Shown piece by piece: positions 4,561-58,000 of a DNA stretch of 64,000 nt. The stretch's first letter is position 1. Every line of letters starts with the position of its first letter. The position numbers were made by a program, and so were the translations under genes. Below the pieces are notes generated by a model, which was not told the DNA's origin, searched no databases, and saw only the letters and a list, made by a program, of their open reading frames with translations. The DNA is from Hydra vulgaris (lineage: Eukaryota; Cnidaria; Hydrozoa; Anthoathecata; Hydridae), in NCBI RefSeq assembly GCF_038396675.1, contig NC_088926.1:39721501-39785500 (forward strand), written 5' to 3'.

Positions 4561-4829
4561 AAGCTCATAAGACTTTATAAGCGAATTTATAAGACTATTT
4601 TTATCCATATTATGACATGAACATTAAACGTGCAAATGAAAGTTATAGCAGACAACATTGATGTTTGACACTATTGCAACACTTTGGAAAAAAAATTCTC
4701 TAACGATAACTTCATAAAAGCACAAATCTACATAGTTTGTAATGTTATAAAAATTAAATATCCTATAAAATGACGTCATATACTAATAAAACCTCGCCTC
4801 CTTTCATACCAAACACCTTCTCCCCACGC

Positions 4830-5036
4830 AACCTTTATGGATGGCCCAGTAAAGTCTTTTTCATAAACTTTTCAAAAAATTTGTTTCTTCGTAATAAATG
4901 GCAAGGCGATCTTTTAATTAAAAACAGAAAAATGGGAGGTGTATTGATTTTGTTAAAACGTCAGTATACAAGGGTAGGGGGTCTGAAATCAGTGGCTTTT
5001 ACTGTGTACATACTTTATGGATGCCCCCTTAACTTT
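4830..5036. repeat. Partial second copy of the same MITE family
   Basis: ACCTTTATGGATGGCCCAG near 4833 and TACATACTTTATGGATGCCC near 5011 repeat the right end of the 4113-4560 element. The intervening stretch also resembles it, for example GTATACAAGGGTAGGGGGTC against GCGTACAAGGGGGTCC. It seems to lack a left end and is probably truncated. Confidence 0.55.
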
Positions 5037-5297: not shown

Positions 5298-5634
5298 CTT
5301 AAAAGCATCGAAAAAATGAGGCTAATAATAAATAAATCAATTTTGATCTTTACTTCATTGCTAATAACTCTAAACAAACTATAACTTATAAAAAATATTT
5401 AAAATGTTCACTGGTTTAGAGGCGGATCCAGGATTTTTTGGTCTTAGAGTTAAAATCAGCATAACATTTTGAAAAATATTCTAACAAGACATACATATAA
5501 ACGTACAAAAGTTTTTAATTTAGAACGTTCCTGGAAGTTACCTAACTCAAATACTAAAAAATCTCTTTCTAAACTCTAAAGTCTCTTACTAAAAAATTCG
5601 CTTTTTGACTTTTGCAAGATTTGAATAATTTTAA
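5298..5634. other. Spacer, nothing recognised
   Basis: AT-rich sequence downstream of the minus-strand zinc-finger gene. It may contain that gene's 3' untranslated region. No motif was identified. Confidence 0.4.
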
Positions 5635-7081
5635 TTATTTTCTTTTTACAAAAAGAGTTTTTCTTAGTCCCGGTTCGCCTTGACTTGAAATGTCACCTTT
5701 ATTTATATGCTTTACCACGTTAATCCAAGCTGTTAAAAAGGAACGAGCACGCATTGATATCCACTTTTTTAAGATTGTTAACTTTAATAGTTGAGATAAA
5801 TCTAAATTCTCAAGATTTCGAGTCAGTGATGACCAAGAAACATCTAACTGAGCATTTTTTTGGAAACTTGACATTAAAACATCTCTAAGATCCTGCCCTT
5901 TATAATTCACTAGTAAGTTCCTATTTAGTATGGATCTTGCAATGTTTTCAACATGGCATATAAACAAATAAAACTCATCATTCACATGCATTAATGCTCC
6001 TCGATCTACTCGGTCAATCCACGATCTTGTGCTATTCAATAAAGCATCATTAGAAATGTTGTTTGACAACTGCCAAGAATTTATAACAGAACAGATAATT
6101 AAAGATGATGGTGATTTGTTTCTTTTGTATTTTTTCAGCAAAAAAAAAACAATATATCCGGAAACATACATTACTACCTTTTCCTCTCTTAAAGATAATT
6201 TTAATTCTAACATTTTCTCATCAGTTACAAAGAGTTCTTTATTTCTCCATAATAAACATTTTTCATACATTTTGTTTAACACAAATACTCTTAACATGTC
6301 AATATGGATCTCACTAACTTCAATATTTATAAACTTTAAAATATTATTCCATTCAGTTTTCAAATTAGCTGACAATCTCATTTTATTAACCATTTGACAT
6401 ATATTGTTACGAGAACAAGAAGTATTACTTGATGCGTTTAAAATTGCAAACATATCAACAGATAGAAGTCTATTAAAATGTTCAACTAATTTTTCTATTT
6501 CATTTTTGTGAAATAGCAGTTTAGAAGCAACCATGACAGAAATATTGCCAGGAGTAACAAAACCTTTTTCTGACATGTTGAAAAATTCATCTTTAAAAGC
6601 TTCATTTATCGATTCCCAAAAGTATACCGGGAATTTCTCTAAAAGCTTTATTTGCACATCATCATTGAGAATATCTAAATTTCAAAAATTTTTAAAAAGG
6701 AATTATAATTTTATTTTTTCATAACCATATAAATACAAAACACACTTTGGGTATACTACCTTTAGAGCTTGCTTTACCTTTTGAAAATGATTTAGTTGAA
6801 TGGATTTCACCACATTTAACGATGTGATTATCATAATATTTTTTGGAATTGTAATGTTTTTTACATTTTTCACATCTCATTAATTCAGAACTTATTTTTT
6901 TCATGTCAAGCTCTTCAAACTCTGGAAGAAAAAAAAATTTCTCGTCGAAGGATGAGATATCAAAATTTTCTTCATTAATAATTAATTCAGTTTCAAAATC
7001 CTCAAGTAAAATACTTATTTCATCACTTTGAAAACATTCAACATCCAAAATAGAAAGAACATCATTTGTTTCACAAGACAT
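5635..7081 (-). CDS. Unrecognised two-exon protein with a C2HC zinc finger, apparently intact
   Basis: Exon 1 is 7081-6760 and exon 2 is 6674-5635, joined across an 85-bp intron with a GTAGTATAC donor and a TTTAG acceptor. The spliced frame is 454 codons including the stop, with no internal stop. Start: the first ATG, encoding MSCETNDVLSIL. The N-terminus is acidic (about residues 1-65), followed by a C2HC finger, C-x2-C-x12-H-x3-C, around residues 67-90, then a basic serine/lysine stretch. The remaining ~340 residues have no motif I can name with confidence; a segment YVSGYIVFFLLKKYK is loosely like the YxxGY motifs of some P/THAP-type transposase C-termini. It faces the P-transposase relic tail to tail. 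It could be a second transposon-encoded protein or a domesticated gene. Function unknown. Confidence 0.6.
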
Positions 7082-7166: not shown

Positions 7167-7602
<436 letters not shown>

Positions 7603-9540: not shown

Positions 9541-11430
9541 ATATTTTTTTTTTTTTTTTTCTTTCTCTGTTTTAATATATAATAAGATTTTACAACTTCG
9601 TAATATAAAATTTTAATAAATAAAAAAAGTAAAACAGATAGGGGCTCAAAGAAGATGAGGATGACAGTACGTTATCGCAATCTTTTCATAGAGCCCCTAT
9701 AACAACATTTCGAAAAAATATCGTAATATGTTACAATATGCGTAATAAAATTTCAATAAAATATCGTAATAAAACGCGTAATTCGCTAATAAAATTGATA
9801 AGCAACCAACAAAAGTAGAAATAAAACAAAAACAGATTTATGAGAAATTATTCAAAGTATCATTAACCAAAAACGTTTCTTATATTTAAAATTTTTTTTT
9901 TTTTGTTAAAAACTCGAATGAACTTAACAAATTTACCGTACCTTTGAATCCTTTTTGAAAAGTATTCCATACTTTTGGACCTCGATATAAAATGCTGTAC
10001 TCTGAATATTTGTTTATTATCCGAGGCAGTTTATTTGTGTTGGACATATTTGGAAGATTATAGCTATCATTTTTATTTATTTTAAACTTGTTATTAAAGC
10101 TTATAGGAGAGAAATTGTGATTATAACGATACATGAAAATTAAATGCCGGTAGATATTTATTTCAAACACATTCATCATTTTCATATCTTTCATTAAGGG
10201 CTTAGCGTGTTCACGCCTATTTTTTGAGTAAATGATTCTGCAGGCATGTTTTTGTAGACTATAAATTTTTTTAATCTTTGCCGCTTGAGTACTTGCCCAT
10301 GAAATGTTTGCATAGCTGATGAAGCTATAAATTAGCCCAAAGTAGATTAATTTAAGACTATTTTTATTGACGTAGGAGCGAACTCGATACATCAAACCTA
10401 TTATTTTGGTGATTTTTGACTGGATATATATTATATGTGGAAGCTAGGATAATTTTTCATCAACAATGATTCCTAAGAATCTTATATTGGATTGCTTATT
10501 TACTAGTTTATCATTTAGAGATAGGTTAGGCAACTTGAGAGGAAGATTTTCTTCTTGTGTTTTTTTGTGAAATAGTATATACTTTGTTTTCTCAGCGTTA
10601 AGTGAGAGTTTGTTAGCCTTAAACCAGTTGTTTACTTTACACAGTTCAATATTCATGTCTGCATATAATTTCTTGATATCATTGTTGGTGAGAAATAAGT
10701 TTGTGTCATCTGCAAACATGACCGAGTTCATTTTTAAAGATGCATTACAAAAGTCATATATATATATTAGAAAAAGAAGTGGACCAAGAATCGATGCTTG
10801 CGGGACTCCACATATGACATTTAATACTCCAGATTGGACATTATTTACATATTGTTTTCTGTTTGTAAAATAGCTTTTAATCCAATAATAAGTTTTATTT
10901 ATTATTCCGTAATGCCTTAATTTATCTAAGAGAATGCAATGGTCCACTGTATCGAATGCTTTTGATAAATCAAGAAACACTCCTAAAGTAAATTTATTAT
11001 TTTCAAAACCATTAGTTATTTGATTTACTATTTCAATGATTGCATGCTCTGTAGAGAGATTTTTTTGAAAGCCAAACTGATTTGGGTAAAAAAAATTGTT
11101 TTTAATGAAATAATCATAGATTCTATTATAAACTACACGTTCGAAGAGTTTTGAAAATACAGAAAGTATTGATATAGGCCTGTAGTTTGTAATGTCAGAA
11201 TGATCATTACATTTATATAATGGAATTACTTTTGCCAATTTAAGTACATCCGAAAATATCCCAGAATTTAATGAGAGCTTAAGTATATGAATCAGGGGTC
11301 TATTAAGACTGTGTTTGTTTGCAATAACTATATCACTAGATATCTCATCAAATCCTGGAGCATTTTTTTTTTTTAAGAAGGCAAAGGCTGCCTCTAATTC
11401 TTCATAGCCTAATTCATAATCAAGCATGGT
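9541..11430 (-). pseudogene. Jockey/CR1-like LINE, reverse-transcriptase part and 3' end
   Basis: The minus-strand frame 11427-9886 encodes a non-LTR reverse transcriptase. Seen in order are KKKNAPGFDEIS, NYRPISILSVFSKLFERVVY, QFGFQKNLSTEHAI, FLDLSKAFDTVDH, CGVPQASILGPLLFLIY and the catalytic MFADDTNLF, then the C-terminal region (YRGPKVWNTF). The usual PQGS is PQAS here. One in-frame TAG at 10446-10444 interrupts DEKLS-LPHI, where relatives normally have tryptophan, so TGG to TAG is likely; the frame downstream is otherwise the same. The 3' end on the minus strand has a hairpin (9638-9700) and an A-run at 9560-9544. The 5' part of the same LINE is at 14149-15067. Confidence 0.85.
9638..9700 (-). 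ncRNA. Hairpin in the LINE 3' untranslated region
   Basis: Arms ATAGGGGCTC (9638-9647) and GAGCCCCTAT (9691-9700) form a 10-bp stem, with partial further pairing (AAAAGAT with ATCTTCTT) toward a ~40-nt loop. It lies between the RT stop and the terminal A-run on the LINE sense strand. 3' hairpins recognised by the LINE reverse transcriptase are known in several non-LTR families; that role is inferred here. Confidence 0.65.
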
Positions 11431-11840
11431 AACGTTATTCGTGGTTTTAAGATAGGTTTCGTGGTTTTAAGGGGCTATCCCCCCTTAAAATTTCAATATT
11501 TTCAAAAAAAAAAAAAATTATTTTTAACTACTTTTACCTGTGTATGATTATAAAAATTGTTTTAAAGTAGCAAATTAACCTATAACTATCTTAATTTGTC
11601 TATTTAAATAAACTATCTTAACGTGATATCCCTAGCAACGCCATAGCAACGCACTTGTTTAACTGTATACATCCTACATTTTATCTTTATTCAACCCTAA
11701 TGTGTGTTATAATAGTCATGTACAAGCTTGAACAGATTCTTTACGAATTTTTCGAGAATTTTTGTAAAGGTTGCTACATCAAGTACGACAATTTAAATCA
11801 GTTATAGTGTTATTTTATCAGGTTAGATTTATTAGTGAAA

Positions 11841-13591
11841 ATGGGAAAAGATTGTCGAGTGAAGCAACGTACACAAACTCACCGTAAAAGAAAAGGATTT
11901 ATTGGAAATCTTAATAAATCTGTGAACATTGATAGTGTTTCTGATAATGTTAGTATTGAGTTGCCAACAATTAATTTAAATGCTGCTAACAGCACTTGTG
12001 TTTTGGAACAAAATAATGAAAACTCACTTAATTTGTCAGCTTCGTCTCGAAAAGTTGAAGACTTAGAAGATACACTTGTTTTGAAACCTTGTATATCTGG
12101 TTATCGTATCATTGATGTTGCTGTTTTGGTTTCTGTTTTTACTTCTTATCTGTGTCCAGAATGTGGTAGTCCCACACTCTCATTAGGTGAGAGATATAAT
12201 AAACGACATGGTTTATCTTCCTTGTTATATCTTAAGTGTCAAAAAAAGATTGCAACTATCTTCATCAGTTCTACACCTCTATCAATGATAATAATAAAAA
12301 AGGATTTGATATTAATAAGCGAATAACTTATTGCATGCGACTTTTGGGCCATGGATATGCAGGCATAAAAAAGTTTTGCACTTTTATGAATTTACCTAAG
12401 CCTATGACCAAAAACAACTTTGAAAAACTACTGAAAATAATTGCAACAGCTGTTGAAACTGTAGCAGAACAAACAATGATAAATGCTGCAAATAAATTGC
12501 AAAAAACATCTTTGGCAACAACTGATATTTGTGTATCTTGCGATGGTGCATGGCACAAACGATGATATTCATCGCTGAATAGAGTCTTTTCTGTTATCTC
12601 TACTGTTAGTGGCAAAGTGTTAGATGTTGAAGTCATGTCTAGATATTGTAAAGGTTGTAGTATTAATCAAGACCTTCAAAAGTCTAATCCAAATGCTTAT
12701 GCACAATGGAGAAATTCCCATGTTTGTAAGTATAATTACCAAGGTTCTGCTGGTGGTTTGGAGCCAGAAGGAGCAAAACGTGTTTTTCAGCGTTCTATTG
12801 ATAAATGCCAGTTAAGATATATTCAATATTTAGGTAATGGAGACAGTAAAAGTTACGTGAATGTTAAAAGTACATACCCTGATATAGAAGTTGAAAAGCT
12901 GGAATGCGTTGGACATTATCAAAAGAGAGTTGGAACACGGCTGCGGAATTTAAAGAAAAGAGGAAAAGGCCTTGGTGGTAAAGGGCGTCTTACAGATGCG
13001 ACAATTGATCGCTTACAAAATTTTGTTGGAGTTGCAATCAGACAAAATGTAGGTAACCTAAAGGAAATGAAGGCAGGAGTGTTAGCATCGCTATTTCATG
13101 TGGCTTCATCGAAAAATAATAGTTTACATTTTCCACACTGCCCTACTGGTTCACACAGCTGGTGCAAATACGATGCTGATAAAATAAATAAAACAACAAC
13201 ATATAAGCCAGGACCGGGTTTACCAATGGACGTTATTATGAAAGTGAGATATATATTTGAAGAGTTAAGTAAAGACAGTGAGTTACAAAAATGTTTGCAC
13301 GGCAAAACACAAAATGATAATGAACCATTTAATAGAATGATTTGGGACCGTATACCAAAACAAACATTTGTCTCGCTTACCCAATTAGAAATTGGTGTAT
13401 ATAATGCTGTTGCTTACTTTAATATTGGAGCAAAAGCATCATTTGATATTTTTAAAGAACTGAACATTGAACCAGGCTTTCATATGATTGCAGGATGCAA
13501 AGTATTAAATAATGAAAGAAAAAGAAATGCTGAATATCGAATAAACCCTGATAATAAGTCAAGGCGGCAATTTTTACGTGCCAAAAAGTAA
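11841..13591 (+). pseudogene. Mutator-like transposase, one frameshift and one nonsense codon
   Basis: Start ATG 11841 (MGKDCRVKQRTQTHRKRKGF). Landmarks: a basic N-terminus, a GYRIIDVAVLVSVF motif, a CPECG zinc knuckle, CDGAWHKR (first acidic residue), LDVEVMSRYCKGC, IQYLGNGDSKSY (second acidic residue), LECVGHYQKRVGTRLRNLKK, then conserved KCLHGKTQNDNEPFNRMIWDR, matching the animal Mutator-like transposase domain family. A frameshift lies in an A7 run near 12243. A TGA at 12563-12565 follows WHKR, where relatives usually have glycine, so GGA to TGA is likely. The last ORF runs open to the TAA at 13591. This is close to an intact gene of roughly 580 codons. Confidence 0.8.
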
Positions 13592-19674: not shown

Positions 19675-20045
19675 TAAGTGCGAATTTCATAACTGCGAAC
19701 TTCATAAGTGCGAAGCAGTTGCAAAGACTGGCATAAGTGCGAACTGGCACAAGCGCGAACTGGCTTAAGTGCGCCAAAAGAATTTGCAAACATTGGCATA
19801 AGTGCGAATTGGCATAAGTGCGAACTGGCATAGGTGCGAATTGGCATAAGTGCGAACTGGCATAGGTGCGAATTGGCATAAGTGCGAACTGGCATAAGTG
19901 CGAAGTGGCACAAGCGCGAACTGGCATAGGTGCGCCGAAATATTTTATAAACATTGGCATAAGTACGAATCGGCATAAGTGTGAACTAGCATAAGTGCAA
20001 ATCAATTGCAAACATTGGCATAAGTGCGAATTGGCATAAGTGCAA
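19675..20045. repeat. 16-bp-unit minisatellite (CATAAGTGCGAACTGG)
   Basis: About 20 diverged units of GCATAAGTGCGAA[CT]TG, arranged in a higher-order pattern punctuated by GCGCC-AAA-GAATTTGCAAACATTGG. The same array with the same punctuation occurs at 36345-36560 in the opposite orientation. Confidence 0.93.
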
Positions 20046-21579: not shown

Positions 21580-24502
21580 GGGGAGATGGGGGCGCATTGA
21601 TCGCCGGGGCAGTATGATCTTTTGGCTTTTACTCGTTCATTTTTGCCTTACTAGAAGTGAGGTTGCAATTTAATTAACCATTATGCTTCCCTAATTGATC
21701 ATTCGTAATATTTTTTCATAAGGTTATCAGCGTCAAAAAAAATAAAGAAAATATTGTTTTTCGTCATAAAAAGTGATTTTTTTAAATCGTACTATAATTC
21801 AAATATATTTTTATTTAGATGTCTGTATGGGTTAACAACAATTTTATTTTAAATTTGTAAGTGTTAGGTGTATAATATAATGTATAATTTTTATTTGGCT
21901 GCAATTTATACAGTAGATATTGCTATCAATATGTTACCTATACCTATTGGGGTACATTGATCTTTGACTATGCGGGGCCCATTGATCGGAGGATCAAAGT
22001 GCCCCATAGAAGACGAAGTGCCCCATGTTTTTGTTTATAAGCAATACAGTTAAACGAATGGATTTGTATTTATAATTTAAAAAAAAACTATAAATAAACA
22101 AACAATAGCTTTTAGCATTTTATTTTTTAAATCTACTTATGTTATAAGCTAGTAATAATAATACTATTATTTTATAATATCAAAAGAATAATATTTAACA
22201 TAATGATTAAAAAATATTTAACATAATATTATTATGTTAAATATTAGCATTTATTAAAAACATATGTTTTTATTGATATATTTTTTTACAGATCTTAAAA
22301 TGGTTAGAAATAGAATTAAAAAAACCAATAAAGTTGCTATACCAAGTGAAACAATGAAAGTAGCTGTTAATAAAGTTTTAGAAGGAACACAACTGAATGT
22401 TGTAGCACGTCAGTTTAACATAGATAGAATGACTTTAAAAAGATATTGTCGTAAAAAGAGGCTTAATCCAAATGAAGCTTTCAAGCCTAACTACAACAAT
22501 AGACAAGTTTTTACAGCAGAAGATGAAAAAAGTTTATCAAGTTATTTACTAATTGCATAAAAAATGAACTATGGCCTTTCAACTAGGTCAACGCGATTAT
22601 TGGCATATGAATTTGCTTTAAAAAACAATAAGATATGCCCATCATCATGGAACAAAAATAAAATCGCAGGCATTGATTGGTTGCAAGGTTTTATGAAAAG
22701 ACAACCAGAGTTGTCTCTACGAACACCTGAAGCAACGAGCTTCGCTCGATCAACAGCTTTTAACAAACACACTGTAAGAGAGTTTTTTCAAAATCTTAAA
22801 ACGGTAAGAAATCGATATAAATATAATCCTAACTGTATATATAATGTTGATGAAACTGGTTTAACAACCGTTCAAAAGCCGGTAAAGGTTTTAGCTGGTA
22901 GAGGAAGCAAACAAGTTGGAAGAATCACATCTGCAGAACGAGGAACATTGGTAACTGCATGTTGTGCCTCTAATGCTATTGGAAATTCCATTCCTCCATT
23001 ATTTATTTTTCTTAGGGTAAAGTTTCATGATTACATGATTAAGGAAGGACCTCCTGGATGTGTGGGATTTGCAAATCCTTCTGGTTAGATGAACTCAGAA
23101 ATTTTCATAGAATGGATTAAAGATTTTGTTAAATATTCAAACTGTTCTCAGGAATCTCCAGTTTTGTTACTTCTCGACAGTCATGAAAGTCATATTTCTG
23201 TTAAAGGCTTGGAGCTTGCAATTCAACACGGAATTACAATGATAAGTTTTCCTCCCCATGGCAGCCATAAATTGCAGCCATTAGATAGAACTGTTTTTGG
23301 ACCATTGAAAAGGTTTTACAATTCTGCATGTGATAATTGGATGGTTTCAAACCCAAGACCAATGACCATTTATGATATTGTTTCATTAGTTCGAGAACCG
23401 TATACAAAAGCTTTCTCACCATCTAATATACAGACAGGATTTAGAGTAGCTGGCATTGAGCCATTCAATTCTGAAATTTTCAAAGATGACGAATATTTAC
23501 CATCATCAGTTACAGATAGAGCTGCTCCAGATACAGTTACTATCACTCCTGTCAACAACATGGAATCTGAAATGATACCAGCACATGTTAATCACATAGA
23601 GTTTGAAATAACTATAGTAAATATTGAAACAAGTATTTTAAACAAAGTGTCAACAAGTGTTGCTTCTATAATCTCACCTGAGGTTTTAAAACCTTACCCA
23701 AAAGCATCTGCCAGAAAAAAAAATGTTAAAAGTAGGCAGTTAAAAACAAGGATCTTGACTGATACTCCTGTCAGAAATGAAATTCGTTTGTCAAAAGAAA
23801 AGAAAATTTTGAAGCAAACCAAAAATCAACAAAAGTCTCCACAAAAGATAAGAAAGAAACTAAGAATTACTCGCTTAGGAATAAAAAACAATGTAAACCA
23901 AAAGCTGCTTCACAACTTGACTTTCACAAATGATGAAATATTCTTAATCAAAATATTGTACTTTTAACAAGTTTTGTAAACTTAAAAGTTGTATTCTTAT
24001 TTCAGTCTTTATATTTCAGTTCTTATAAATTTCAAGTTGTTGTAAAGTTTTAAACGTATATAAAGCGGGTAGCTTATAGCTGCTGTGATTTATACATTTT
24101 TTAATTAAAAATTAGACTAGTGGGTTTAACTGCTATATTTAAAAAATAATTAAAAAATTTAGATGTATTATATGTTATACAATACTACCCTTTGACTAAA
24201 TTATTTACAAGATTTAGTTATAGAAGTGTTAAACGTTTAGATAATATTACGCATATAAGATCAATGTGCCCCAAGTCGGTGATCATAGTACCCCATAGTT
24301 TATGGTACATTGATCTTTTGAGAGGGTTGTTTAAAAGTTAAAATTATTCATGTTTATCATTTTTTTAAATCAAAATATTTATATATTCCAAAAGCCAGAT
24401 AGTTCTACATGTGTTTCGTATTTAATAAGTTTTTACATCTCTTTCAGGTTCTGCGCAATTTTCAAAACACTGCTACGGCGATCAATGCGCCCCCATCTCC
24501 CC
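21580..24502. mobile_element. Complete pogo/Tigger-type transposon
   Basis: A 27-bp perfect terminal inverted repeat begins GGGGAGATGGGGGCGCATTG at 21580 and ends at 24502, flanked on both sides by TA (21578-21579 and 24503-24504), the Tc1/mariner target. Length is 2923 bp. Subterminal copies of ATTGATC/GATCAAT next to a GGGGC/GCCCC run appear at ~21595, 21952, 21980, 22005 (left) and 24259, 24279, 24307, 24480 (right), and are plausible transposase-binding sites. The perfect ends point to a fairly recent insertion. Confidence 0.93.
22300..23967 (+). pseudogene. Pogo/Tigger-type transposase with two nonsense codons
   Basis: One frame of 555 codons starting at ATG 22300 (MVRNRIKKTNK). It has an N-terminal helix-turn-helix (NKVLEGTQLNVVARQFNIDRMTLKRYC), a second CENP-B-like DNA-binding segment (WLQGFMKRQPELSLRTPEA), and a DDE_1 catalytic domain with NVDETG, LLLDSHESH and QPLDRTVFGPLK, then a lysine-rich tail. 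Stops: TAA at 22558-22560 (LLIA-KMNYG) and TAG at 23086-23088 (NPSG-MNSE; tryptophan is usual, so TGG to TAG). There is no frameshift. It is centrally placed in the 21580-24502 element. Confidence 0.92.
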
Positions 24503-33609: not shown

Positions 33610-33666
33610 GCCCATATAAACCAATATAAACAAGGGTCGTCCTTGTTTATATGGGTTTATATGGGC
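33610..33666. repeat. 26-bp-arm hairpin
   Basis: Arms 33610-33635 and 33641-33666 pair at 25 of 26 positions around a 5-nt loop GTCGT. Each arm itself contains two copies of CATATAAAC. Confidence 0.85.
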
Positions 33667-34417: not shown

Positions 34418-34547
34418 TAAATGAGTGCAGCATAGAGCCACCGAACTAGTTACATCAATTAGCCGTTTGTGCGATGAAGATCGATCCTCCTAGCACAAAC
34501 AACTAATTGATGAAGCTAGGTCGGTTGCTCAACGCTACACTCATTTA
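34418..34547. repeat. 130-nt imperfect foldback (miRNA-precursor-like)
   Basis: Arms pair in blocks with small bulges: TAAATGAGTG / CACTCATTTA, ACCGA / TCGGT, CTAG / CTAG, CATCAATTAG / CTAATTGATG, GTTTGTGC / GCACAAAC, around a ~20-nt loop GATGAAGATCGATCCTCCTA. No protein is encoded. It could be a small non-coding RNA hairpin or a foldback transposon. Confidence 0.7.
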
Positions 34548-36344: not shown

Positions 36345-36560
36345 TTATAACAGTTCGCACTTATGCCGCACTTATGCCAGTTTTTGCAGTTGATTCGCAC
36401 TTATGCCAGTTCGCACTTATGCCAATTCGCACTAATGCCAATGTTTGCAAACTCTTTCGGCGCACTTATGCTAATTCGCGCTTGTGCCAATTCGCACTTA
36501 TGCCAGTTTTTGCAATTGGTTCGCACTTATGCCAGTTCGCACTTATGCTAGTTCGCAGTT
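36345..36560. repeat. 16-bp-unit minisatellite, opposite orientation to 19675-20045
   Basis: Units of TTCGCACTTATGCCAG with the same higher-order punctuation (TTTGCAAACTCTTTCGGCGC). It is the reverse complement of the array 16 kb upstream. Confidence 0.93.
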
Positions 36561-36675
36561 AATTTTATTAAATAGAACATTTTACATAATAACATTATAT
36601 ACATAAACTAATATTAAATTAAAATGATATGTAAAAGTATTAAAATTGTGAAACTTTTAAATACAATAATTCTTT

Positions 36676-38087: not shown

Positions 38088-38256
<169 letters not shown>

Positions 38257-38289
38257 TTATAAATTAGTAAAAACACTTATCTAATTTTT

Positions 38290-38339
38290 GATTACTTCAA
38301 CACTGTGTTTCAACAGCAGCAGGTTCATCAGGAAGAATC
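38290..38339 (-). ncRNA. Hammerhead ribozyme motif, type I, degenerate helix II
   Basis: Read on the minus strand: helix I strand GATTCTTC (38339-38332), CTGATGA (38331-38325), helix II ACC / GTT with one mismatch, GAAA (38311-38308), helix III CAC-A-GTG (38307-38301), TT, then GAAGTAATC (38298-38290) pairing with helix I. The core boxes are intact, but helix II has a C/U mismatch compared with the plus-strand copy. Confidence 0.7.
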
Positions 38340-38376
38340 TATAAAAATTTAATCAATGCTTCAAAACTCAAAGAAA

Positions 38377-38426
38377 GATTCTTCCTGATGAACCTACTGA
38401 TGGTGAAACACAGTGTTGAAGTAATC
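38377..38426 (+). ncRNA. Hammerhead self-cleaving ribozyme, type I
   Basis: Helix I strand GATTCTTC (38377-38384); core box CTGATGA (38385-38391); helix II ACC (38392-38394) with GGT (38402-38404) and a 7-nt loop; core box GAAA (38405-38408); minimal helix III CAC (38409-38411) with GTG (38413-38415); UU at 38416-38417 as the U-H dinucleotide, with cleavage expected after 38417; then GAAGTAATC (38418-38426) closing helix I with one bulged U. All conserved core nucleotides are present. The 1-nt helix III loop is too tight for a stable monomer, and the near-palindromic CACAGTG suits the dimeric form known for such minimal hammerheads. Confidence 0.82.
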
Positions 38427-38510
38427 AAAAATTAGATAAGTGTTTTTACTAATTTATTATTGCTCTGTTCTTTTAGAACATTGAGCACTCTGTTTGTAGA
38501 ATACACTAAC

Positions 38511-38612
<102 letters not shown>

Positions 38613-41707: not shown

Positions 41708-44221
41708 TAACCATGAGCGAGACTAGGTTTTTTCAAACCGAGACGAGACCGAGACGAGAAGTTAGTACTTCTCGTGAGACCGAGAACAAGACGAGACGAG
41801 AAATTTAACAATTTTTGAAAACAAATTTATTAAAATCCAAGAAAAAAAAAAATGTAAACATGGTTTTGACAAATAGACACAAATGATATTTGTCAAATGT
41901 AAACAACTTTTTCAAATATTAATTCAGAATTTTTTTGCCAAACTTTTCCAACAAGACAATGTTTTCTCTGATTAAGACGATTTGTTCTACTTTTTCTGGG
42001 TGAAAGTTGTGTCTGGATGATCGGACGACATTTCCACATGAGCTAAAAACTCTCTCTGATTTAGTTGAACTTGCTGGAATAGCTAAAATTTGTCTAGCTA
42101 ATGAAGAGAATTCTGGCAATGTATTTAAATGCAATTTCCACCAATCAAGACTCGGAAAGTCTTTTTTGGCATCAGGGAGATATTCATACTGACACATTTT
42201 GCTTCAAATAAGATTCAGTTCAGATGGTGGCTCTTGTGTTTCAAGTCTGACGTTTAACTTGCGCTTTAGTTTTGAATTAGGGGACAAATCTGCTGAAAGG
42301 ACTCTGGCAACAGGTTGACACTCAACATTATCCTTAACCTGTGAGGCTAACCATTCTTTTTTTTTTTTGAAATTTTTTGAAGAGCTTCAAGTGAAGTCCC
42401 TTTGAAGCAGGATTTAAGTAGTTTGCTGCAGCACTCAATAAGTTTCCAGTGTGACAAAGAGAAAATCTTTTCTCAATGCAGCTTTTCAAGTTCTTTGCGT
42501 ACAAGACACCGTAGCCACTTTTCCCATCGGTCTCAATAAATTGATCAATTTTGTCATGGATTAAGTAAAGAGAATCGGCGACAGTGTTAACTGTTGGAAA
42601 AGACTCAGCCAACCACGTTTCTGTAGCTTCTTTAAATGGTGCCAAAATTTCTATTGCTCCCTCGATTGATTTCCACTGTGATGCACTGATGGTCTTTGAA
42701 GAAAAAATATCTTCATTTGCACATAAGCTGATAATTGCACTCTTTAGATGTAGGACAGAAGCCATGCAATCCAGTTCACTATTCCATCTTTTGTCAACAG
42801 ATTGGCGTAACTGTCTAAAATCGATTCCTTGAGCGTCTGATTCTGATTCAAGCAACTCAGCTGCAACTGTTGACTGGTGAGTTAAAGAAGCCAAATCTTT
42901 GCATGTTTGCAACGCATTATCCATTCTAGCAGTCATTCCAAATGAGTTTCGAACTGCACATTGCAAAATATGATTGTTGCACAACTATTGGTCAAGGCGC
43001 TTTGACAATTTGACTGCAAGTTTCATGTTTCTTGCCTGGTCGTTCACGCAGTACATTGGCAAATTAGCAGGCAAATTTAGTTCTTCTAAGAAAGAATCCA
43101 GCTTTCCTTTAATTAAGATACCTATGTGTCTGCCTGGGAACTGTTGCACGTGGGGTGTCCAGTGATGTAATCTCCAATTTTCGTCAATAACATGAAAAGT
43201 CCAAGAGATGTAGCTGTCCAAAGCTCAAGTCCAAAGGTCAAATGTAAATGCAGCACTTTTTAGATTTAGCGTAATCTCCGTTATTATGCTCTTCATTCCA
43301 GCTTGAACTTCTCTCAACCGAATTGAAAGCTTTCTTGAATATGTTGTTCTGTGATGAAGGCTCAGTTTAGGGTTTGCAATGTCAAACAATTTCTTGAAAC
43401 CTCTTCCTTCGACTGCTGAAAAGGATGCCAGATCAGGGCAAAAGTAATCCAGCATTGCAGAGTCAAACTGTTTTTGAATGGAATTGTCTTTGTCATATTT
43501 GGACTTTGTTTCAAGCATTTCGACCATGGTTCGTTGTTTCTCCTTAGGAGGAGGAAGAAGAGAGTCGTCAGTTTTTTCAGAATACTCAACGTAATTTTGG
43601 CTGTGTTTTTTTTCGAGGTGACGATGAAGTCCGCTTGTGTTTCCATCTTTTGTTTGTCACAGAGTTTTTGCACGCCTTGCATTCAGGACCGTCACTTGTT
43701 TTTAGAAAATATCTCCAGATTTTGTTTTTTTTTGGTGAAATTTTATATCGTTGAAATGAGGCAAGAATATTTCTTTTCAATATGAACAATATGTGTCAAG
43801 TTGAATTCCACTGGTAAACTAATGATATTAAGTCGAAAGTGCACCATTTTATACAAAAAGTTTTTGTATTTAAAATCTAATTAAATATATTTAAAATCTA
43901 ATTAAAATTTTTTAACTCGATTTTTTTTAAAAATCTAATTGAAAAATCTAGTTAAAAATCTAATTAAGAATTTAATTTGTTTTTGTCAAAAACAAATTAA
44001 ATTTTTAATTAGATTTATTAAAATCACGGAGTCAAAATATTAATTAGTTAATAAAACAAATTGTTAAGCATTTTGTAAATTATAATAATTTTTAATTTGG
44101 AAAATAATATAATATTTAAGTCTCGTTCTACTTCTCGCGAGAATTTTCTATTTCTCGTTTCTCACGAGAAGTCCCATTTCTCACGAGAAACGAGATCGAG
44201 ACGAGATCTCGCTCATGGTTA
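41708..44221. mobile_element. hAT-B transposon, complete, inserted in hAT-A
   Basis: Terminal repeats TAACCATGAGCGAGA (41708) and TCTCGCTCATGGTTA (to 44221), flanked by a perfect 8-bp duplication CTTTTATG at 41700-41707 and 44222-44229, as in hAT elements. The subterminal regions are packed with CGAGA/TCTCG words. The 2514-bp element carries a transposase gene on the minus strand. Confidence 0.95.
41919..43789 (-). pseudogene. hAT-B transposase, a few stops and frameshifts
   Basis: Minus strand: BED finger at the start (KNKIWRYFLKTSDGPECKAC, continued in another frame), then 43527-43225 (YFCPDLASFSAVEGRGFKKL ... SAAFTFDLWT), a stop, 43221-42985 (SWTFHVIDENWRLHHW ... CVNDQARNMKLAVKL), a TAG, 42984-42334 (LCNNHILQCAVRNSFG ... 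SVDKRWNSELDCM), a gap, then 42197-41919 with the dimerisation end ILAIPASSTKSERVFSSCGN. All hAT blocks are present, but at least two stops and two frameshifts interrupt it. Confidence 0.88.
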
Positions 44222-48463: not shown

Positions 48464-48628
48464 TTTTTTTACAGCGTAGAGTTTTTGGGGCCTGTGTGAT
48501 ATTTTAATTTATACTTCATAAAAAAAGAATATCTTTTAAGGTTTTTATAAACATTAAAAAACATTCTTTTTTTATGAAGTATAAGTTAACCAATACCTAC
48601 GGCACAAAAACTCTACGCTGCAAAAAAA
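48464..48628. mobile_element. Foldback MITE
   Basis: Left CAGCGTAGAGTTTTTG and TATACTTCATAAAAAAAGAA; right arm TTCTTTTTTTATGAAGTATA and CAAAAACTCTACGCTG. The two blocks are in mirrored order, giving arms of about 65 bp with a diverged middle part. No coding frame. Confidence 0.82.
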
Positions 48629-53878: not shown

Positions 53879-54379
53879 TTTTCTTTTTGTTTTTCATAAT
53901 TCCTGTTTTTGAAGTAAAGTAGCATAAATTTAGTGATTTAATAAAGAAGCAGTCAAAAAAATTTAAAGCTTCTATACAATCTTTTTTCATCATCTTTTTA
54001 AGTTATTGTAAGTTTATTTTTATTGTATTTGCAAACCTTTTTTTTTATTAATGACATAATATATATAACATAAAAAAGTGATTTATCTTTGAAATTACTG
54101 TTATTTTCCAGTTAGATCTTTAGCGACATTTAAGCTTTAAAGTAACTAAAAATATTTTAAGCAAAAAAGGAAAAGGGTGTTTTAAAATATTGGGCTCTGA
54201 AACTGAGTTATATAAACATGTTATTTTAATAATTTTTAAGAATTTTTTATTTCAGCATTTCAAATACATTTATTGTATATGCACCAAAAAAGTGTTACAA
54301 ATGTTGAATTAAAGATTGAGTTTTATCTGAATTAAAGTTCGCTAGTGGCTGGTGAACTTTAATTCGGATTAAACTCAAT
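53879..54379. other. AT-rich spacer
   Basis: An inverted pair TTGAGTTTTATCTGAATTAAAGTTC (~54316) and GAACTTTAATTCGGATTAAACTCAA (~54354) forms a ~25-bp-arm hairpin around 54316-54379. No gene. Confidence 0.55.
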
Positions 54380-55060: not shown

Positions 55061-58000
55061 GATAGTCCATCTAGACTTTCCATATTAAGACCATAAATGT
55101 GAAACAATAAATCAGCATTCATAACAGATGGGATTTGTTGTGGTTAGCTATCAAAATAAAGAGTTGTTTATAATTATTATTTGAAGTTAAACAGTTATGA
55201 CTGGTACACAAATGTGATACTGCAACATCTAGGAACTATAACATACTTAGTACATCTAGGAAATAAAAATACTTAGTGATCTCAATTCACATCTTTTTAT
55301 TTTATTTTATTGTGTTAACACTTTAAAAGTCAAGGTGGCCAATACGAAAAAACCTTTAAAAAATACAGTAAAAATAAACACACATTTTTTTAAATAAACC
55401 TCAAAACAATAGCATCATGACACTAAACTTAAGCAACAAGAACACTGCACCATGACAACAAGCTCTCTTCTTGCTTTGTTTTTCAAACAAGTTAATGATA
55501 CTACCATTGACATAGGGTCTTATTTATAGTTTTAACTAAGAGTAAAACAACTAATTACATTTAGAAACACAAGAAATTTTTGTTATTCATTAGGAAGTTA
55601 TTAAAAAATCTAAAAAAGTTCAACTCATTCCCGAAAGGTTTAATTACAAATGTCTTTTCTTATAACTTTTGTCCTTATGAAAATGTTTTCAAGATTTAGT
55701 ATATGTTTCAGGTCTTGTAACAAATCAAATATGAAACTGAAACTAAGTGAAAGTAAAACAAAGCAGAACACCACCGGAGCAAAACAAAAACAAATGAAAC
55801 TGCACCCAACAAACAGAGAAAAAAAGAAAAAAGTGTTATTAAATTATGAAAAACCAAAGTAGTTTATCAAAATCATTCAATTTTATCCATGACCTTGTTT
55901 ATCAAAAGTTTTTCAGGTTAGGCAGCTTGTCAAGACTAAATGTCTGGCTTTTACAAAGAAGAATACTATAAAAATCATAGTTCTTTTTTCTCCGTTAAAA
56001 CCTGACTACAGCAACCCTGGCCAAGTATGTTTTAAAAGAGGTTTTCACGACATGTCATTTACTCATCCTAAGGTCAATATTAAGGTTTATTAACTTAAAC
56101 CCTAACAACAAGTATACATGACCCAACCCGAACCCTAAAAAATTTAGTTTGCCCACCTACTCTGGTAACATAAAATGTGGATTATCTGAGGTGATTACCT
56201 GCAATTAGTAAATAACCAAGTTAATATTTTTCAAGTCTCTTGAAAAATCCTTAACTAAAAAGGAAAACACCTATGTTTAATTCTCACTAGAATTAACATT
56301 GGTGTTGTCTATGTAGGAAAAACAATATCATTTTTAAGATGTTTACAGCGTTAAGTGTTGTTTCTAACAGTTTACTTAATTTAACAGAGTATTGTTCATA
56401 ACGGTTTATTAATTATTTTACTAGCTATTGATAAAATACTGATAAAATGCTTTTAATTTTTAATGATCTTCTAATTGCGTTCAAGTAATCCATAAATGGC
56501 AAACTGCTTAGCAGACATAATGAGTTTAGTTACTTAAAAGAATGGCCTCCTTGACTCTAATGACACTCTTGACCTTAGGGTGATGATTTAATATAAAAAA
56601 AAATTTCTACCCACACTCAGAAAACTATGTTACAAGAAAATAATATTAAATTTACAAACGCTGGCCAAAAAAAAAGGGGATTGTTGAGACATAATCCAAT
56701 TTTTTCAAAAAGAAAACGGGCTAAATTGGAAAGATCATGCAACTTGAAAGAATACTATCTGAGAAACAAAAACATGGATAAGTGAAACATTCTACTAACA
56801 CAAATAAAACTAACACGTGAATTAATTTGAAAAGCACACTCAGCTTAAAGACGTACACACACACACACAAAAGCTGCTGTGGTGCAGTAACTGCTTCTAT
56901 AACTCTCTGCAGTTATAGGGTGGGCAAACAGAATCTTTTTTAGAGATTTGACAAAATCTCTAAGAGAGTGACAAGTTATTTAAAATTAATTTAATAAAAT
57001 TTTCTATTTCTAAAATTAATAAAACTTAATTAAACTTTATACCGGGAAAATTATTTAATGTAACGTGAAAACTCTTTTTAAATATTTTAAATGAACATAG
57101 ATAAGTTTTTTTCGGGGATTTCCTGAAATCCGGAAAGTCACTTTAAATTCTTTTAACTTTTCCAAAATCTTTGAGTGTATTTTGCTCTTGATTTGAGAAA
57201 AAATTGTTATTTTTTTTTTAATTATTCTTTTTTTCACAAATCATTAGCAAAAAACACTTAAACTTTTTTGGAAACTTTAAAGAAAATTTACGTGAATTTA
57301 TGGAATTCACTTTAAATAAATAATTTTAATAAAATACTTAAGGCATTTAGTGAAATGCCGCGATCTCGAAATTTTAAATGGAAAAGTGTGGAAATAATGT
57401 GAAGAAATAAAGAAAGAAGCCCAAAGGATTCAATACATAAATCAATTGATTTAGGAACACGATAATAAAAAGTAATGTTACATCAACAGAGGGTTTTGAT
57501 TGAGCAGCAATAGGGTTAGGGTTAGGAGATTTTCCATTTTCTAATTTTACTTCTGACAATTTTCAATCTGCTATGTAAACATTATCATATTTTTTTCAAG
57601 TAATCGTTTTTTTTTAATTATGAATTTTTAATTTATTTATAATGATACATATAGAGAGGCTGATTCTACCAACAGCTGTAAAATATCAGATTATTAACAG
57701 TTTATTGTTGCGCATGGAGAATAACTAATATGTCCCTGTTAATGCTTTTGGTGTGCATTGTTGAGGCCACACAAGCAGCCCTAAGTTATAAAGTTAAAAT
57801 TGTTAAAAAGAGTTTCAACTTCAGGTTAACTAACAGGACCAAGACAATTGCATACCTTTTGATGGCAGAATCTATGAATGAGGTTTTCTTTAAACTTAAA
57901 TTATACCTAAAGTAACCTAAAATATTAAGCATAAAAACCATTCCTACCAGGTAACTAATCTAAGTTCAATCTTTCAAAAATCTTTGTGGTCTTTGTAGCA

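Follow-up and report, generated by a model that had tools for sequence, protein, structure and literature searches.

A foldback with two outward-pointing hammerhead motifs in Hydra vulgaris is probably a Penelope-like insertion into a (TA)n array

What could place two hammerhead ribozyme motifs on the opposed arms of one short inverted repeat? A stretch of Hydra vulgaris DNA of 64,000 nucleotides, here called the window, raises this question at positions 38259-38457, where two arms of 82 nt each (38259-38340 and 38376-38457) are 96% complementary and enclose a 35-nt spacer. The sequence-only reading had seen two opposed hammerhead cores in a single inverted repeat, and this was borne out: each arm carries a core, and the arms mismatch at three positions (38396, 38400 and 38403). 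The arms stand head to head, and both hammerheads point outward. The parts of the locus are as follows.

38090-38261, no strand: left (TA)n array, target context (Tandem Repeats Finder, 86 copies)
38259-38340, minus strand: left arm, a tail-less pseudo-LTR-like copy, identified by the inverted repeat and as an arm of the genome family; its hammerhead is in sense on the minus strand
38290-38339, minus strand: minus-strand hammerhead motif, core at 38308-38331, helix II with one mismatch; the MFE structure of its homodimer is not a double hammerhead
38341-38375, no strand: spacer, the head-to-head junction; spacers differ among copies
38376-38457, plus strand: right arm, a pseudo-LTR-like copy with a tail; its sequence is that of the 80-arm consensus
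38377-38426, plus strand: plus-strand minimal type I hammerhead motif, identified by its core match, covariation among relatives and a homodimer MFE structure that is a double hammerhead
38458-38513, plus strand: tail, a longer second 3' end of the element with two predicted stem-loops, between the right arm and the right array
38517-38609, no strand: right (TA)n array, target context (Tandem Repeats Finder, 46.5 copies)

Taken over 80 arms, 61 of them distinct, the consensus matches the right arm letter for letter, and the three differences of the left arm from it are private to the window. The fold of the tail (38458-38516) had a z score of -2.06, with 5 of 200 shuffles equally stable. No tRNA was found within the window.

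We used the foldback as a query against the genome (911,502,276 bases in 15 contigs), a search that the sequence-only reading had itself suggested. There were 1071 candidate places; the best 40 were scored, with 83 matches listed among them over both strands. The 39 other loci were taken with about 800 bases on each side, and L053, an inner piece of the L042 place, was left out. As the 40 best matches to a foldback query, the sample is biased towards foldbacks, and its counts of solo copies are not representative. The window and the 39 loci contained 37 head-to-head pairs in which both arms reach position 77 or more. An assembly artefact, which had been raised as a possible source of the inverted arm, is unlikely because 37 such pairs occur in 40 genome places.

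The outer ends of the sampled foldbacks are fixed. A tail is attached to one arm in 34 of the 37 foldbacks of this query-biased sample, to both in 2 and to neither in 1; independent attachment predicts 18.5, 9.8 and 8.8, respectively, and gives a probability of 6e-8 for at least 34 one-tailed foldbacks. The arm starts at consensus positions 1-4 on the left in 34/37 and on the right in 36/37. Both arms thus usually end at the outer end of helix I, for which the 5' end of an RNA or a stop of reverse transcriptase (RT) at the hammerhead are candidate readings. Adjacent arms within 400 bp were head to head in 41 cases, tail to tail in 3 and direct in 1, again in a foldback-biased sample. The (TA)n blocks had been suspected to belong to the unit and do form its usual context: judged by eye, they flank most of the 31 family copies inspected, with clear one-sided departures at L031, L035 and L048. 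Solo copies were seen as a truncated arm plus tail (L026, 1499-1623) and as a tail-less arm (L051). At L043 (801-1664), three tailed foldbacks lie in series and share a (TA)n stretch, a pattern suggestive of repeated insertion or of a later tandem duplication.

The centres, by comparison, vary. Spacers range from 0 to 70 nt among the 37 foldbacks, and among the 27 of at least 15 nt, only 2 of 351 pairs were alike over at least 70% of the shorter member. Arm-like bits occur inside 13 of these 27 spacers. The window spacer has a sole relative in the sample, at L032 (0.66), 181 kb away on the same contig; the window foldback and that of L032 (801-1090) probably share an origin. Palindromes are often rearranged at their centre, and variable spacers alone are therefore no proof of de novo formation.

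Perhaps, then, the foldback is an ordinary one-tailed MITE or foldback element that was copied as a unit, its palindromic centre scrambled over time and its hammerhead an ancestral passenger? The near-constant one-tail form and the spacer common to the window and L032 would both fit this, and DNA transposons that target TA microsatellites are described (PMC4486113). The same search found 12 further inverted repeats or palindromes in the window, most of them compact (48464-48628, 34418-34547, 43952-44021, 57124-57309, 33610-33666 and 54315-54379 are among the 12); the six inspected lack CTGATGA and look like MITE-type hairpins. However, a MITE would have symmetric TIRs and a shared centre, and what we observed were asymmetric ends, with a 56-nt non-TIR tail on one arm, and mostly unrelated spacers. 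Among the 34 one-tailed foldbacks, moreover, no position separates tailed from untailed arms, and the two arms of one element diverge by a mean of 0.054, below all 2000 re-pairings (between elements, 0.075 for tailed-tailed, 0.065 for untailed-untailed and 0.070 for tailed-untailed comparisons). Hence two separately inherited lineages of arms do not seem to lie behind the asymmetry, with the caution that gene conversion could obscure such a signal and mimic this result. Solo arm copies also speak against copying as a unit, as does a broken Penelope-like element flanked by diverged copies of arm and tail, described below. We consider this explanation improbable.

We conclude that the foldback is very probably a non-coding Penelope-like insertion, in which two head-to-head pseudo-LTRs (pLTRs) lie in a (TA)n array and which would have been formed by two-ended priming. 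The link to a Penelope-like element (PLE) came through the tail. Used as a probe, it led to further diverged copies, and six 10-kb stretches around them were examined. At one of these loci, L054, two diverged arm-plus-tail copies (7329-7483 and 4794-4974) share the minus strand. Between them, on that strand, are an RT piece (5980-6780, minus; 266 aa, with LKDHK, DINDFYPS and YRDDGL) and an endonuclease-like piece (5347-5613; 88 aa, with YIGITEG and LSKYIW). Direct-orientation pLTR copies flanking an RT piece were present at this one locus, which belongs to a diverged subfamily and not to the window's own; among the loci examined, we found no full-length PLE with a pLTR of exactly the window's subfamily. 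The same endonuclease-like motifs recur at L055, upstream of the arm-plus-tail copy there. The six motifs searched for were absent from the window, from four of the six 10-kb loci and from L006-L013. The tail is homologous to both pLTRs of the broken element in L054: against the L054 and L055 copies it scored 74, 76 and 79, where shuffle maxima were 25, 26 and 29. The arm scored modestly against the L054 pLTRs (32 and 37, where shuffle maxima were 34 and 30) and reached 48 against a shuffle maximum of 30 with the third copy of this set.

Pfam gave no match for the RT piece or the endonuclease piece of L054. At E <= 0.001 the RT piece matched 794 relatives, and among the 120 listed, LKDHK occurs in 61, Y.DDG in 106 and a YIG-type motif in the same protein in 3; we take these to be Penelope motifs. 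YIGITEG, found at both L054 and L055, resembles the GIY-YIG endonuclease motif; relatives of this candidate endonuclease piece lacked a Pfam match, and the AlphaFold model of one relative was too poor for a structure search (pLDDT 40.3). When eight RT relatives were run against Pfam, RVT_1 appeared in two, both times under the curated cut-off, and a PDB sequence search with an RT relative found nothing. P0121, a protein 52% identical to the L054 RT piece, gave an AlphaFold model with pLDDT 83.2. Its nearest solved folds are telomerases at ranks 1 and 2 (TM 0.49 and 0.52 by query length), with DRT9, LINE-1 RTs and others close behind. This ranking is as expected for PLEs, which are described as sharing an ancestor with telomerase RT (PMC3846280). 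The sampled foldbacks further show inverted pLTRs and an optional tail, which are Penelope-like traits. The sequence-only reading had named both minimal type I hammerheads and kinship to Penelope, and both stood; its remark that such ribozymes usually occur as same-strand repeats misses the head-to-head inverted pLTRs already described in Penelope (PMC3846280).

Are the motifs on the arms hammerheads at all? CTGATGA...GAAA occurs at 38385-38408 on the plus strand and at 38308-38331 on the minus strand, and around it we found what defines a minimal type I hammerhead: the core CUGAUGA, GAAA, U16.1, an H17 that is not G, and three helices, with one helix II mismatch in the left arm. As had been claimed, helix I (GATT+CTTC / GAAG-T-AATC) is present in both arms, and helix II is fully paired on the plus strand (ACC/GGT) and mismatched once on the minus strand (ACC/GTT). 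A minimal helix III is there too; its pairing in a monomer had been given as CAC-A-GTG, which would need a 1-nt loop, and so the monomer helix is instead ACA/UGU with a CAG triloop. When two copies dimerize, ACACAGUGU forms 4+4 pairs flanking a single A-A mismatch. The plus-strand motif is laid out as follows.

38377-38384 with 38418-38421 and 38423-38426, plus strand: helix I
38385-38391, plus strand: core, followed by helix II (38392-38394/38402-38404) and GAA (38405-38407)
38408-38410/38414-38416, plus strand: helix III, with the predicted cut at 38417/38418

The likeness could be a chance one within a repeat of another kind, and two results lean that way. One is the Rfam covariance check, proposed in the sequence-only reading, which brought no significant match: nothing reached gathering scores, the 19 matches of a 321-nt query at E <= 10 included no hammerhead family, and 59 nt of the right arm matched only RAGATH-1-hammerhead, at 13.3 bits against a cut-off of 56.3 (E 2.6). 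Matches to miRNA families merely reflect the long hairpin while the hammerhead models stay silent, and we judged Rfam insufficient as sole arbiter. The other is the monomer, whose MFE structure is a different fold, 3.9 (right) and 7.3 kcal/mol (left) below the hammerhead at 37 C; monomer folding was accordingly rejected as support for a hammerhead.

Three lines of evidence argue against chance. The motif is rare by composition: with a type I descriptor written post hoc, after the motif had been seen, and the base composition of the window, the expected number per 64-kb window is 1.9e-5 for Watson-Crick pairs and a helix I of at least 4, and 4.7e-7 for a helix I of 4+4; with G-U pairs allowed, these become 2.8e-4 and 2.4e-5. 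Relatives also vary in step. In an alignment of 13 hand-chosen arms and relatives from the window and the fetched loci, all of the same genome, 21 cells showed a two-sided change against a shuffled mean of 8.7, and 0 of 500 shuffles reached 21. These changes fall in helices I and II, and helix III has none. Pairing was seen in 80.6% of cells against 70.8% in the shuffle comparison, and the covariation score was 0.295 against 0.151, with 0.054-0.106 for slid versions. The number of pairs showing a two-sided change (7 against 5.5, reached by 107/500 shuffles) and that of further pair types (10 against 10.9, reached by 426/500) were not above shuffles. Two covarying pairs are clearest: 10.2-11.2 is C-G in 7 sequences, U-A in 5 and unpaired in 1, and the first pair of helix I is C-G in 8, U-A in 5 and unpaired in none.

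The third line is the dimer. The MFE structure of the right-arm homodimer is a full double hammerhead in which all 30 expected pairs form and both cores stay free, at -21.0 kcal/mol against -15.0 for two monomers. The other combinations fell short (left with left, 16/30 pairs; right with left, 19/30). Of 1000 random control sequences that kept the core and a 3-bp monomer helix III, 18 reached at least 24/30 pairs; 0 of 500 shuffles did. The energy gain on dimerization is ordinary, being equalled or exceeded by 483 of 1000 controls. From these comparisons we take the arm motif to be a genuine, or formerly genuine, minimal dimer-type hammerhead with predicted cleavage, and hold a chance likeness to be very unlikely. 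Elsewhere in the genome, a diverged foldback at L014 (370-524) has GCC/GGC in place of ACC/GGU in helix II, a two-sided change; a G10.1-C11.1 pair, as seen there, is usual in hammerheads.

An inverted arrangement, it had been proposed, would let transcripts of either strand cleave themselves, but could also lock a through-transcript into an 82-bp duplex that hides both ribozymes. The folding models uphold the second idea and do not support the first. Forcing the hammerhead into the whole foldback cost 65.7 (plus) and 72.5 kcal/mol (minus) in ensemble energy. On both strands the antisense arm is transcribed before the hammerhead arm, and in a nascent plus transcript ending just past the motif the penalty is already 59 kcal/mol. 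Transcripts started in the spacer are freer (penalties of 9.4 and 8.1), and the hammerhead is still unfavourable in them as monomers. The models thus indicate that the hammerhead inside the finished foldback very probably does nothing. They also indicate that it would need a copy of the same sense to pair with usefully, and no single foldback transcript can provide one.

Least probable, to the point of being remote, is a retrozyme-type non-autonomous element moving through circular, hammerhead-processed RNA: animal retrozymes do have type I hammerheads, and PLEs have been proposed to mobilize these elements (PMC7761336; PMC7229834), but upstream of the predicted cut the arms here continue for 42 nt and reach consensus positions 1-4 in the proportions given above, and same-sense neighbours make up 1 of 45 adjacent pairs within 400 bp in our foldback-biased sample.

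How might a two-ended Penelope-like insertion have arisen? On our model, a PLE protein would cut both strands of AT-rich DNA, and reverse transcription would be primed from both ends on two pLTR RNAs. The cDNA begun at a long start site would leave the tail, and that begun at a short site the tail-less end. Both cDNAs would stop near the outer end of helix I and would then be joined in the middle of the insert with extra filler, giving two pLTR copies, each with a minimal dimer-type type I hammerhead, head to head. The hammerhead itself would belong to the RNA of the parent element, where copies of the same sense may form a double hammerhead; once the foldback is complete, the motif would be buried in the 82-bp duplex and probably silent.

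In favour of this model is Poseidon_Ac (PAc), a PLE of Anolis, whose purified protein is described as cleaving and extending both target strands, with a preference for AT-rich DNA, and as using two internal start sites that define the tail (PMC11167929). In that element, about 85-92 nt separate the cut from the RT start (PMC11167929); in the window, the predicted cut lies 40 and 96 nt from the two ends, distances that agree roughly with the Anolis layout. The sampled arms reach 42 nt upstream of the predicted cut, and hence the copied RNA would not have been cleaved there, which is consistent with PAc, where hammerhead mutants still insert (PMC11167929). A bolder version of two-ended priming holds that the foldbacks record an obligatory, ordered two-site reaction, with the long RT start used on one target end and the short one on the other. 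Both ends would come from two template RNAs, which the near-palindromic helix III, along with a protein dimer of the kind predicted for PAc, would keep joined as a double hammerhead. The hammerhead would then serve to pair templates no less than to cut, and the hairpin insert would be what the reaction naturally yields. We think this version unlikely.

Compared with known systems, the insert combines familiar traits. Among the closest are Penelope elements of Adineta vaga, for which head-to-head inverted pLTRs with an optional tail are described and self-priming was suggested (PMC3846280). As here, one inverted pLTR may carry a short tail at its 3' end, and some copies hold foreign DNA or no coding DNA between their pLTRs. 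There, the inverted pLTR is found together with an ORF or with captured DNA, and the tail measures about 31 bp (PMC3846280), whereas the Hydra insert consists of two short arms without an ORF, has a 56-nt tail and usually sits in a (TA)n target. The available text of that paper contains no mention of hammerheads. PAc shares the pLTR hammerhead, a tail defined by two internal RT start sites, the cleavage of AT-rich DNA and the extension of both target strands, all as described for PAc; it differs in a tail of 30-40 bp against 56 nt and in an ORF that starts in helix II (PMC11167929), where the Hydra arm has no reading frame open throughout. Small dimer-cleaving Penelope-like hammerheads (Cervera 2014; Lunse 2017), so far as those accounts go, resemble the arms in their minimal type I form and very weak helix III, and a same-sense dimer is likewise predicted here; in the foldback, however, two are locked in opposite orientation within one insert. 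Animal retrozymes share the type I hammerhead, the lack of coding capacity, the small repeat and cnidarian hosts, but are same-strand tandems of about 150-450 bp (PMC7229834), not a head-to-head pair with a tail. In the open-licence literature, judged mostly from listings, we recognised no description of hammerheads in a head-to-head foldback.

These foldbacks bear on two matters in PLE biology. The in vivo role of Penelope hammerheads was called a mystery in a 2020 review (PMC7761336), and the steps of PLE insertion after first-strand synthesis are described as unvalidated (PMC11167929). The Hydra genome supplies many short inserts (the 1071 candidate places), with both ends and the junction in less than 300 bp each, and the one-tail rule of 34/37, a 5' stop shared at the outer edge of helix I and the junction filler make such questions countable. 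A hammerhead motif inside a foldback, moreover, need not imply a self-cleaving foldback.

Exact and degenerate hammerhead patterns were also run against sequence collections. They matched 0, 0, 1, 1 and 0 stretches in a viral contig collection and 3 in a genome contig collection, and none in plasmid and phage collections. The five matches (L001-L005) come from microbial or viral contigs, several lie in or at the edge of an ORF, and they lack matching helices; we judged them to be chance.

The window also holds coding remnants of mobile elements: a reverse transcriptase (RVT_1) at 9886-11466 (minus), a DDE_1 transposase at 22258-23967 (plus) and a Mutator-like transposase at 12566-13591 (plus). 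For a reverse transcriptase of the window, the best named match is a Hydra vulgaris protein (71% over 81% of the query), and an unnamed protein reaches 76%. A 16-bp unit makes up two arrays far from each other, at 19727-20043 and 36394-36561, and occurs there as ACTGGCATAAGTGCGA and in the reverse-strand form.
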